A stretch of 35,421 nucleotides of DNA from Erysipelotrichaceae bacterium (GCA_021201315.1 JAJQFG010000048.1:1-35421), one strand, 5' to 3'. Positions 19,281 through 22,817 are shown, numbered from the stretch's first letter. Notes: generated by a model from the sequence alone, not told the origin. Program-made: numbers and translations.

Positions 19281-19301
19281 TTTATTTGCAGATGATTCAT
19301 T

Positions 19302-19325
19302 AAAAAGGAAGAATTTTATTCTTCC
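19302..19325 (-). terminator. Terminator of the tandem paralogue array
   Basis: Arms GGAAGAAT (19307-19314) and ATTCTTCC (19318-19325) with a 3-base loop and five T residues on the minus strand. The hairpin contains the last codons and the stop of the fourth paralogue. Confidence 0.85.
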
Positions 19326-20230
19326 TCATCATTATCTATAAAACTATAAAAATCTTCATGATCATCAAATTCATCATCATAATCAAAGTCATCATCATCT
19401 GGTGATTCATATGCTTCTTTTAAAATACGATAATCTGTTAATAACACATCATTACCTTCTGCTAAATCAAATTCTTCATCAAGTGGGAACATATCTTCTT
19501 CGAAACCTTGATCTTCTATACTTTCAAAGAATCCATCAGGATTATCATAATATAAATTCATAAATTCATGATCATCTTCCCAGATACCATAACCCTTACC
19601 TTCTAAAATGTGAGCATTATCCATTAAATAAATATTCTTATTTTTATTGACTGATAATACTGTTATTTTAAAGTTAAAACAATCTCCAAAATCATATAAA
19701 ACTTCTATTTTTGAATTTTTACGAAGATTACTATCAATAATAATAGAATCACTAGCACTCAAAATATCTTCTTCATAATCATCATCTTCCGTTGCTGGAC
19801 ACATAAATGTTTGATTCTTATATTTAACAGAATACAAATGATATCCTTCACAACGGAATGCAGCCATAACGATATAAGCTAAATCAGCAAACGTCATCAA
19901 ATAAGGGACTTCCATAATACGATAATATTCATCTTCTAAATCTTCTAATTCAACTCTAATAGTCAATGATTTTGTAGCTTCCTTAGCACTATGGGCAGTT
20001 TGTTTTAAGATTTCAACAGTACCTTCTTCAATTACTTCTTCATCATCCAAACCACCAATTAATACAACACCCATCAATTGATTAACTGTAGCATTTAAAA
20101 AATCATCCCAGTCTTCACTAGGTATAGATTTTTTTAGATTTCTTAATTGTTGTTTGATTTGTGGATTATCACTATTTAATAATTCTTCTTTACAGCGTTG
20201 AATACAATCATTAATATTTTGTAAGAACAT
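19316..20230 (-). CDS. pRiA4b ORF-3-like domain protein, paralogue 4 (acidic tail)
   Basis: A 304-aa protein, last of four tandem relatives. Residues 1-85 are a helical N-terminal region. Residues 88-215 carry the pRiA4b ORF-3-like/IS1096 TnpR-like domain: SLTIRVELEDLEDEYYRIM, VPYLMTFADLAYIV, GYHLYSVKY and IEVLYDFGDCFNFKITV. GKGYGIWEDDHEFMNLYY follows. The C-terminal 30 residues are almost all D and E. Its closest relative is its neighbour at 20296 (shared LEDLEDEYYRIMEVPY and NLRKNS). The function of this domain is not known; no catalytic motif is evident. It has its own extended -10 promoter in the 65-base gap before it and a terminator over its stop, so it may be expressed apart from the other three. 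Confidence 0.72.
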   Translation of the reverse strand: MFLQNINDCIQRCKEELLNSDNPQIKQQLRNLKKSIPSEDWDDFLNATVNQLMGVVLIGGLDDEEVIEEGTVEILKQTAHSAKEATKSLTIRVELEDLEDEYYRIMEVPYLMTFADLAYIVMAAFRCEGYHLYSVKYKNQTFMCPATEDDDYEEDILSASDSIIIDSNLRKNSKIEVLYDFGDCFNFKITVLSVNKNKNIYLMDNAHILEGKGYGIWEDDHEFMNLYYDNPDGFFESIEDQGFEEDMFPLDEEFDLAEGNDVLLTDYRILKEAYESPDDDDFDYDDEFDDHEDFYSFIDNDEEE

Positions 20231-20250
20231 AATTTCCTCCTTTTCTAAGT

Positions 20251-20259
20251 ATTATAGCA
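20251..20259 (-). promoter_or_regulatory. Extended -10 promoter before paralogue 4
   Basis: Minus strand TGCTATAAT (TATAAT at 20251-20256), about 20 bases before the gene start with its AAGGAGG site. A small dyad ATAGGTCTAT overlaps the upstream edge. Confidence 0.5.
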
Positions 20260-20295
20260 TAGACCTATGAAAATAGCTTATATTAATTATGAAAA

Positions 20296-21120
20296 TTATT
20301 CTTCATAAACAAATCTTAAGTGTCGATAATCTTTGATAAGATTACGATTAGCATTTTCTATATTAAATACTTCATCCAAATGAAAATCTTCAATATATTC
20401 TTCCTCTTCAAAGCCATTTTCTTCTATTCTTTTAATAAATCTTTCATGATCATTAAAATAATATTCCATCAAAGAATGTTCATCTTCCCAAATATTATAA
20501 CCTTTACCTTCAATAATATAAGCATCATCTACATTGAAAGGCATTTTATGTTTGTTTGTTTTTAAAACTGTCACTTCAAATAACCATTCATCACCAAAGT
20601 CATATTCAACTTCAATATGACTATTTTTACGTAAATTCAAATCTCCTATAAAGGTTTCAGAAGCATATAATTCCCCATAACTATCTAAATCACAAGTATA
20701 TCTTTGCTTCTTATGATTTACAGAAAACAGGTGAGAACCATCAGCTTTAAAACTTCCTAAAATAAAATAAGCGAAATCAGATAGAGTCAAATCATAAGGA
20801 ACTTCCATGATACGATAATATTCATCTTCTAAATATTCTAATTCAACCTTTATAGTAAGAGACTTGATTGATTCTTGTGCAGTTTCTAATATAAGTTGAA
20901 CAAGCTCCACAAGATGAGATTCTGAGATATCATCAATATCCATATTTTCATCATCGAGTCCCTCAACAGTTTGATCAATAGTGACAATCATAAATATTTC
21001 GAAATCATCTTTAGGGAATATTTTCTTTATTGCTTTTAATTTTTTGATAATTTCCGGATTATTACTATTGATAATTCTTTCTTTTAATTGACTTTTTTGA
21101 ACTTCTATACTTTGTGCCAT
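20296..21120 (-). CDS. pRiA4b ORF-3-like domain protein, paralogue 3
   Basis: A 274-aa acidic protein. Residues 1-85 are helical, starting with a charged stretch and a block (NSNNPEIIKKLKAIKKIFP) also found in two of its relatives. The pRiA4b ORF-3-like domain covers about 86-215: SLTIKVELEYLEDEYYRIM, VPYDLTLSDFAYFIL, DGSHLFSVNHKKQ and IEVEYDFGDEWLFEVTV. The C-terminal part has EGKGYNIWEDEHSLMEYYF. Most similar to the next gene (19316). It lies 9 bases after paralogue 2, in one operon. No enzymatic motif, signal peptide or membrane segment is seen; cytosolic location is inferred. The family occurs as passenger genes of IS1096-type elements and free-standing in many bacteria. Confidence 0.73.
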   Translation of the reverse strand: MAQSIEVQKSQLKERIINSNNPEIIKKLKAIKKIFPKDDFEIFMIVTIDQTVEGLDDENMDIDDISESHLVELVQLILETAQESIKSLTIKVELEYLEDEYYRIMEVPYDLTLSDFAYFILGSFKADGSHLFSVNHKKQRYTCDLDSYGELYASETFIGDLNLRKNSHIEVEYDFGDEWLFEVTVLKTNKHKMPFNVDDAYIIEGKGYNIWEDEHSLMEYYFNDHERFIKRIEENGFEEEEYIEDFHLDEVFNIENANRNLIKDYRHLRFVYEE

Positions 21121-21129
21121 AATTTCTCC

Positions 21130-21906
21130 TTACTGATACATATTTTTCATATGATGATAACTACTTATAAGATTCTTATTAGCCTCATTCAAATCAAATT
21201 CTTTAATCACAAAATCTTTTTCTTCCATATCATTATCTTTGATAACATCTAGAAATAATGGATAGCTTCTATAATATAAATGCATAAATGTTGCTTCATC
21301 TTCCCAGATACCATAACCTTTTCCTCTGATAATATAACTATCTTCTAAATCAAACTTATCATCATGATCATGTATTGATTGAATAGTCACCTTAAATTTC
21401 CATTCATCTCCATAATCATATTCAATATCTAATTGACTTTTTGGTTGTAGATTAAGCTGACTTAGATAAACATTTGAAGCCAGATATACTAAACTCCCAC
21501 CTCTATCTACAAATATTTCTTTTTTATATTTAACGGAAAACAAATGATATCCACTGGCTTTAAAAGTAGATAATACGAAATAAGCAAGATCAGCTAAAGT
21601 AATATCATAAGGTATTTCCATAATACGATAAAACTTTTTTCCTAAGCCAATAATATATGCCTTAATAATAACAGATTTATAAGCATCATGAGGTTTTCTT
21701 TCATTTATAATAATATTGTTAGTTTCAGGTATGGATTCATCTATAGCATCCAATAGTTTATAAATAAGCTTATAAGTTCGTTCATCAATATCATTATTTT
21801 CAACATATGATTTTAATTCATTAATAGTTTCATAAAGTGTTGAATGTTCACGATTTTGTAATTTTAATTCAATTTGTTGGATATAATCATATATTTCTTG
21901 TTTCAT
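21130..21906 (-). CDS. pRiA4b ORF-3-like domain protein, paralogue 2
   Basis: A 258-aa protein with the same plan: N-terminal helices (residues 1-70, here not closely matching the others), domain at about 75-200 with YIIGLGKKFYRIMEIPYDIT, LADLAYFVLSTFKASGYHLF and LDIEYDYGDEWKFKVTI, then IIRGKGYGIWEDEATFMHLYY. It pairs with the gene at 21913: both have the GLG spacing before Y-R-x-M-E-I-P-Y-D-I-T-L-A-D-L-A-Y and a DHD-[GD]-KF-[ND]-L-[ED]-D-S block. The gap to the upstream gene is 6 bases. Function unknown. Confidence 0.73.
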   Translation of the reverse strand: MKQEIYDYIQQIELKLQNREHSTLYETINELKSYVENNDIDERTYKLIYKLLDAIDESIPETNNIIINERKPHDAYKSVIIKAYIIGLGKKFYRIMEIPYDITLADLAYFVLSTFKASGYHLFSVKYKKEIFVDRGGSLVYLASNVYLSQLNLQPKSQLDIEYDYGDEWKFKVTIQSIHDHDDKFDLEDSYIIRGKGYGIWEDEATFMHLYYRSYPLFLDVIKDNDMEEKDFVIKEFDLNEANKNLISSYHHMKNMYQ

Positions 21907-21912
21907 TAAATA

Positions 21913-22722
21913 TCACCATTCACTATATATGGATTTAAAATACTCATAATCAGATAATAAATCATCATTTGCATCTTCTAAGTCAAATTCATCTGTCACA
22001 AAATCATCTTCACTCATACTAATATCATCAATATAATCTAAAAATGCATCATGTTTTTTATAATACAAATTCATCAAATAATGCTCATCTTCCCAGATGC
22101 CATAACCTTTACCTTTAATAATACGACTATCATCTAAATTAAACTTACCATCATGATCAAGAATTGATTTAACAGTCACTTTAAATAACCACTCATCACC
22201 AAAATCATATTCAATATCTATTTGATTATTAAATTGTAAATACAATTGTGTTAGATAAATTTCATCAGCTCTGTTTTCATTATAAAAACTATCCCTGCAA
22301 GAAAATCTATTCTTTCCATAATTCACGGAAAACAAATGAGACCCATCCGCTTTAAAACTTGATAAAACTAAATAAGCTAAATCAGCTAACGTTATATCAT
22401 AAGGTATTTCCATTTCGCGATACAACTGTCTACCCAAGCCTGCTAAAATAACTCTAATCACTACTGATTGTGTTGATACATTATATAATTGTGTCGCCAT
22501 TTTAATAACATTTAAAATATCATTATCTGTAATAGGTTCATCATAATCTTCTGATTCGAATAATTTCGTAAATTCATTAATAGCTGTAGTTATATAATAA
22601 TTCCATTCATCTTGAGGTATTTTTTCTTTTAAAATATTCAAATTATCTTGTATTTCCGAATTATCACTGTTCCATATTTTGTTTGTCATGTTTTGTTCAT
22701 AAATTTCTATTTTATCCATCAT
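21913..22722 (-). CDS. pRiA4b ORF-3-like domain protein, paralogue 1 (first of the array)
   Basis: A 269-aa acidic protein and the promoter-proximal member. It carries the N-terminal SDNSEIQDNLNILKEKIP block shared with paralogues 3 and 4, the domain core LYREMEIPYDITLADLAYLV, DGSHLFSVNYGKNRFSC and IDIEYDFGDEWLFKVTV, and IIKGKGYGIWEDEHYLMNLYY. The start is supported by AAGGAG and a TATAAT box 19 bases upstream. All four copies keep the YDFGDEW-like and GKGYGIWED segments, indicating selection on the fold rather than decay. What the proteins bind or do cannot be read from the sequence. Confidence 0.73.
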   Translation of the reverse strand: MMDKIEIYEQNMTNKIWNSDNSEIQDNLNILKEKIPQDEWNYYITTAINEFTKLFESEDYDEPITDNDILNVIKMATQLYNVSTQSVVIRVILAGLGRQLYREMEIPYDITLADLAYLVLSSFKADGSHLFSVNYGKNRFSCRDSFYNENRADEIYLTQLYLQFNNQIDIEYDFGDEWLFKVTVKSILDHDGKFNLDDSRIIKGKGYGIWEDEHYLMNLYYKKHDAFLDYIDDISMSEDDFVTDEFDLEDANDDLLSDYEYFKSIYSEW

Positions 22723-22740
22723 ATAAATCTCCTTTTTTCC

Positions 22741-22768
22741 ATTATATCATACTATTTAAAAATTGAAA
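22741..22768 (-). promoter_or_regulatory. Promoter of the four-paralogue operon
   Basis: Minus strand TTTCAA (22763-22768), 16 bases, TATAAT (22741-22746), close before the AAGGAG of paralogue 1. It is back-to-back with the plus-strand promoter at 22776. Confidence 0.55.
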
Positions 22769-22775
22769 TTTTTTC

Positions 22776-22804
22776 TTGCATCAAAATAAAAATTATGATA
22801 ATAA
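22776..22804 (+). promoter_or_regulatory. Promoter of the cytidylate kinase-like/MATE unit
   Basis: TTGCAT (22776-22781), 17 bases, TAATAA (22799-22804). It gives a transcript start near 22811 and thus an 80-base leader that includes the hairpin at 22818. Confidence 0.5.
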
Positions 22805-22817
22805 TAGGTAGCAATGA

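Follow-up and report, generated by a model that had tools for sequence, protein, structure and literature searches.

Four consecutive genes for pRiA4b ORF-3-like proteins occur in the genome of a gut Erysipelotrichaceae bacterium, and the question they raise is whether they constitute a dedicated system or only an amplified family. The stretch that was analyzed, here called the window, covers 35,421 nucleotides (GCA_021201315.1, JAJQFG010000048.1). An initial annotation described four intact tandem paralogues, three of them tightly spaced and the fourth with an acidic tail, with no transposase nearby, and proposed that they form an undescribed system with specialized partners. The description of the genes holds. 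The array nevertheless looks like an unexceptional tandem expansion, specific to one lineage, of a known but uncharacterized family, and no evidence was found for a new kind of system.

The reading frames of the four genes (copies a to d) are all open, co-oriented, and arranged head to tail, with intergenic gaps of 6, 9, and 65 bp for a–b, b–c, and c–d, respectively. The coordinates are presented in Table 1. Family membership was established with PF07929, against which the four proteins score 64.1–68.1 bits, relative to the Pfam gathering cut-off of 26.6 bits for the whole-protein score. A search of the whole genome places PF07929 at exactly these four positions. The upstream side of the array is occupied by a cytidylate-kinase-like gene in divergent orientation and by a MATE gene, and the downstream side by hemA, hemL, and hemC; rpsD is also within the window, ~10 kb from the array. 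No transposase or recombinase was found among the neighbors examined (cytidylate kinase-like, MATE, TetR, hemA, hemL, hemC, rplT, and infC).

Table 1. Features of the PRiA4_ORF3 array and its boundaries, in window coordinates
Feature	Position	Strand	Description
hemA	18035-19300		Gene following the array
Hairpin and U-run overlapping the end of copy d	19300..19328	minus	Probable intrinsic terminator at the array/hemA boundary
Copy d	19316-20230	minus	304 aa, one PRiA4_ORF3 domain, acidic C-terminal tail
65-bp gap before copy d	20231..20295	minus	TATGCTATAAT element and AAAAGGAGG ribosome-binding site
Copy c	20296-21120	minus	274 aa, one PRiA4_ORF3 domain (PF07929)
Copy b	21130-21906	minus	258 aa, one PRiA4_ORF3 domain (PF07929)
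Copy a	21913-22722	minus	269 aa, one PRiA4_ORF3 domain (PF07929)
Promoter-bearing region before copy a	22723..22813	minus	Extended -10 type element GTATGATATAATGG; the gene at 22814 points the other way

The relations among the four copies were examined by pairwise comparison and by phylogeny. Copies a and b are 49% identical and copies c and d 48%, and every other pair is 36–40% identical. The conserved core with divergent termini that had been noted earlier was confirmed, with identities of 41–63% for the core versus 12–35% for the N-terminus and 33–47% for the C-terminus. The same annotation had grouped the genes into two sister pairs. In a tree with close outgroups the pair (a,b) is supported at 94/91, and the best topology is (d,(c,(a,b))), with support of 79/79 for a+b+c. 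A c+d clade is absent from the best tree yet not rejected (AU p 0.19), so the phylogeny returns the first pair and not two clean pairs. The array copies and their orthologues together form one clade (100/100) with respect to the single-copy homologues of the related genera g2, g15, and g19, and the duplication is therefore placed after the split from these lineages.

The fate of the array within the genus was followed in a sample of four species that includes the window species (G000); the genomes of G022 and G023 are metagenome-assembled. The array occupies the same locus in all four species, and no further PRiA4 copies were found in the genus with a genus profile search. Copy a of G022 is intact and 77% identical to that of the window. 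It is followed by residues 2–59 of copy b joined out of frame to copy d from residue 206 onward; copy c is lost, and the b::d junction is a deletion scar, unless the two pieces were joined in the assembly, as is conceivable. Copy d is the only intact copy in G023 and is 88% identical to window d. Ahead of it, the sequence that precedes a continues directly into the 3′ end of c, and this junction with the remnant of c scores 139 versus a shuffle maximum of 74. One contig of G021 ends inside codon 46 of a, with the first 45 codons present, and another ends inside hemA. The orthologues of copy a in G022 and of copy d in G023 show that the duplication preceded the split of the species. The array is thus older than the species of the genus and has been eroded at least twice, with a different intact copy left each time. 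Two independent contractions with different survivors, seen in two metagenome-assembled draft genomes, suggest that the copies are redundant.

Copy number was surveyed in about 530 other genomes from overlapping samples of the family, the order, and the phylum. PF07929 is present in 25 of the 43 genomes of the family, in 82/245 genomes of the order sample, and in 31/295 of the phylum sample. Most of the positive genomes carry a single copy. Between two and five places were recorded in a few genomes, although some of these are pieces of one gene, and in a few relatives two copies are near each other. No other run of at least three adjacent PF07929 genes was found among the about 530 genomes examined. 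The family and the order thus largely display the single scattered copies that the initial annotation had itself listed as evidence against a conserved system, and with the sister species down to one intact copy the view of the array as such a system finds no support. In G018 (C104, 26892-77444) three PRiA4-domain places were detected within ~50 kb; these are non-adjacent, and one is truncated.

A single full-length homologue is found in g2, g15, and g19 within a tag–PRiA4–(esterase)–rpsD neighborhood. These proteins share with the array copies their length, the layout of N-terminal domain and core, and the GYGIWED motif, but they occur as one copy, are ~30% identical to the array copies, and have other neighbors. 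The position of the single homologue at the tag–rpsD locus points to a long-standing chromosomal gene and away from recent acquisition on a mobile element, although the g2 and g1 proteins are only ~30% identical. Between congeners, S4 (the rpsD product) is 98% identical and the PRiA4 protein only 54–69%. The neighborhood of tag (3-methyladenine glycosylase-like), PRiA4, putative esterase, and rpsD recurs in related genera (L096–L103), where species with 98% identity in the S4 gene have PRiA4 proteins of 54–67% identity. In g15, g19, and two g2 genomes the gene after the single copy encodes the esterase (PF00756), which was considered as an obligate partner; this was ruled out, as the closest homologue in the window genome is on another contig (C91).

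These comparisons bear on the proposal that the four copies are a specialized set, either a hetero-oligomer or combinatorial adaptors, with partners determined by the divergent helical ends. Such a set would fit the low identity of the N-termini relative to the core, as well as the acidic tail of copy d and the separate promoter-like element that precedes this gene. All four genes are intact in the window species, in which some division of labor is possible. However, two sister species each live with one intact copy, which differs between the two. The single-copy homologues also display fast-changing N-termini between species, and N-terminal divergence therefore needs no specialization. A specialized set is considered unlikely, although it retains some weight for the window species.

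The surviving orthologues are under purifying selection and are constrained yet quickly evolving. The dN/dS is 0.24 for copy a (G000–G022) and 0.10 for copy d (G000–G023), and the usable neighboring genes provide values of 0.07–0.18; those for the MATE gene and hemL of G023 could not be used, as their codon alignments are out of register after internal stops. Values among the paralogues (0.5–0.9) were left uninterpreted since the genome is AT-rich and synonymous sites seem to have reached saturation. The single-copy homologues within g2 and g19 have dN/dS values of 0.15–0.38 and are far less conserved than rpsD. Turnover of copy number together with the fast divergence between congeners, relative to S4, could also be the mark of an arms race and hence of an anti-phage or anti-plasmid defense array. 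This is very improbable, as dN/dS is well below 1, housekeeping genes flank the array on both sides in place of a defense island, and no viral relatives appeared when viral contigs were scanned with a 14-member alignment. The best PADLOC matches have E values of 0.0036–0.0071 (~14–15 bits), none of which is credible, and no credible match to the array proteins was obtained among the PHROGs phage families.

The signals for transcription were compared across the genus. A TATGATATAAT element is located upstream of copy a, and the same element is found in G021 and G022; of this region, the upstream part is retained in G023. The extended -10 of the TATGCTATAAT type before copy d is conserved upstream of d in G023. 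A separate promoter for the fourth gene had been claimed earlier, and it is this conservation that speaks for it; a generic promoter scan provided no excess of sites (30 observed vs 36 expected). The hairpin and U-run at the stop of copy d have a fold z of −3.9 in the window, and the hairpin recurs in G023 (z −3.0) and in G022 (z −5.1), where the sequence of the stem has changed. Judged from the retained hairpin and U-run and from the TATGCTATAAT element, the transcript of the array is probably separate from the hem operon, and a second transcription start is probably located before copy d.

The boundary with the hem genes is relevant to a possible haem link, in which the array would serve as an accessory to the hemA–hemL operon directly after it. 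The end of copy d and the earliest possible start of hemA are 16 bp apart, and the neighborhood is kept in G022 and G023. The idea was rejected, and is regarded as highly unlikely, because the conserved hairpin and U-run probably end the array transcript and because hemA of G023 is broken by stops beside a copy d that is intact and constrained. In addition, the single copy in g2 and in most other relatives checked is found in genomes without a hemA match. The hemA gene is intact in the window and in G022 but is interrupted in G021 and in G023 by several in-frame stops or shifts, and hemL and the MATE gene of G023 each have an internal stop. Possible explanations are decay of the haem/cobalamin branch in the sister species and errors in those assemblies.

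Open reading frames similar to pRiA4_Orf3 are passengers of ISAzba1-group transposons (PMC3942029). An origin of the array as remnants or passengers of such elements (ISAzba1 or IS1096 TnpR type), which the family name, the known passenger role, and distant homologues on plasmids would favor, is very unlikely, as the neighbors examined include no transposase or recombinase, the locus is the same in all four species of the genus, and the plasmid and phage relatives are only 20–32% identical.

The reading that we consider probable, though well short of certain, is a genus-restricted tandem expansion, subject to birth and death, of soluble acidic ubiquitin-like adaptors. A chromosomal PRiA4_ORF3 gene would have been duplicated in tandem before the species of the genus split, and unequal deletions would have removed copies in the sister species, with one intact copy kept in each. 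The protein would be a soluble acidic beta-grasp adaptor with a conserved face (R102, H129, Y172-D173-G175-D176, and W210-E211-D212 in copy a) that may bind a shared partner or ligand, and the variable helical ends would tune binding. The extra copies would be largely interchangeable and may serve mainly for dosage or mild diversification. The four-copy array and the single-copy sister species amount to a small natural experiment on copy substitution, and the window species offers a setting for testing dosage and partner choice.

The structure of copy a was predicted from an alignment of 26 sequences, and the model has a mean pLDDT of 93.8 and a pTM of 0.89. It consists of a helical N-terminal domain (residues 1–83), a ubiquitin-like core (about 85–212), and C-terminal helices (214–267). 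Within these limits the N-terminal helices span residues 2–83 and the mixed part of the core about 85–205. Structure prediction had been suggested as a check with the initial annotation, and for copy a it provided a confident model in which the helical N-terminal region is present. The fold of the core agrees with that of MM3350 (2i1s), a family member of known structure, with a Z of 16.6 over 165 residues and a Foldseek E of 4e-8. The next matches are SNAPC3 chains, with Z values of 6.2–7.9, followed by ubiquitin-fold domains of SUMO E1 and of ubiquitin-like proteins at Z 4–5.6. The N-terminal domain alone (model pLDDT 92.9) provided no fold match at E 0.001. Sigma-E region 2 was its top VIA match, at a Z of ~5 that is within noise for helical bundles, and was rejected. 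The numbers of acidic and basic residues are 55/23, 44/31, 61/29, and 77/23 for a, b, c, and d, respectively. The acidity of all four proteins, greatest in d, speaks against simple DNA binding.

The residues R102, H129, Y172, D173, G175, and D176 (copy a numbering) are invariant in the 26-member alignment, in which the core motif Y-D-[FY]-G-D accompanies the invariant R and H. In the array this motif region reads YDFGDEWxF or YDYGDEWxF for copies a to c and YDFGDCFNF for copy d, and the segment G-K-G-Y-x-I-W-E-D is found in all four. The array shares with the PF07929 family a score above the gathering cut-off, the YDFGD core, the invariant R, H, and Y-D-x-G-D, and the 2i1s fold. Canonical members, however, have YDFGDCWxH and (C)PPEDxGG in place of the array versions and GKGYGIWEDE. 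The motifs GDCWxH and PPEDxGG, which are typical of most members and not required by the Pfam model, are absent from the array copies. Relative to the canonical members, the array has lost the Cys/His pair and gained the helical N-terminal domain and four tandem copies.

The best match of the core outside the family is SNAPC3 (9fso_Z; rmsd 3.1 over 122 residues, Foldseek E 1.7e-3), at a Z of 7.9 that, being just under 8, may reflect a common arrangement. SNAPC3 is described as ubiquitin-like in its central domain, with C221/H313/C317/H319 forming a Zn finger (PMC9758055). In the chain sequence of this protein (SNAP50 of the human snRNA-activating complex), residues 311–319 read YCHQGDCEH, which resembles the canonical PRiA4 sequence YLYDFGDCWEH; by the aligned ranges, the latter strand is at about the same place as the SNAPC3 motif. 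The array copies differ from SNAPC3 in having no Cys/His pair. SNAPC3 was not found by sequence with the 26-member profile, which among PDB entries matched only 2i1s. On the basis of the modeled fold and of the GDC-x-H-like motif at a corresponding strand, the PRiA4_ORF3 core might be hypothesized to share a common origin with the ubiquitin-like, zinc-binding SNAPC3 core as its prokaryotic relative, the bacterial family members being interaction scaffolds and the array branch having lost the metal ligands to become pure protein-binding adaptors. This hypothesis is speculative and is held only tentatively.

The PRiA4_ORF3 proteins are widespread and uncharacterized in the searchable literature. 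In the literature searched they are mentioned by name only, apart from the passenger ORF of ISAzba1 transposons, and no partner, ligand, phenotype, or experiment was found for any of them. Fusion proteins of relatives combine this core with DUF6930, DUF6933, DUF7309, TPR, HEAT, or 3′–5′ exonuclease domains, and fusions to such diverse domains fit a portable interaction module. In genus g20 (L006–L010, L022, and L027) the fusions are ~500 aa in length, with an N-terminal PRiA4 domain and weak similarity to DUF6930, and the genes adjoin a eutH-like gene in most of those genomes.
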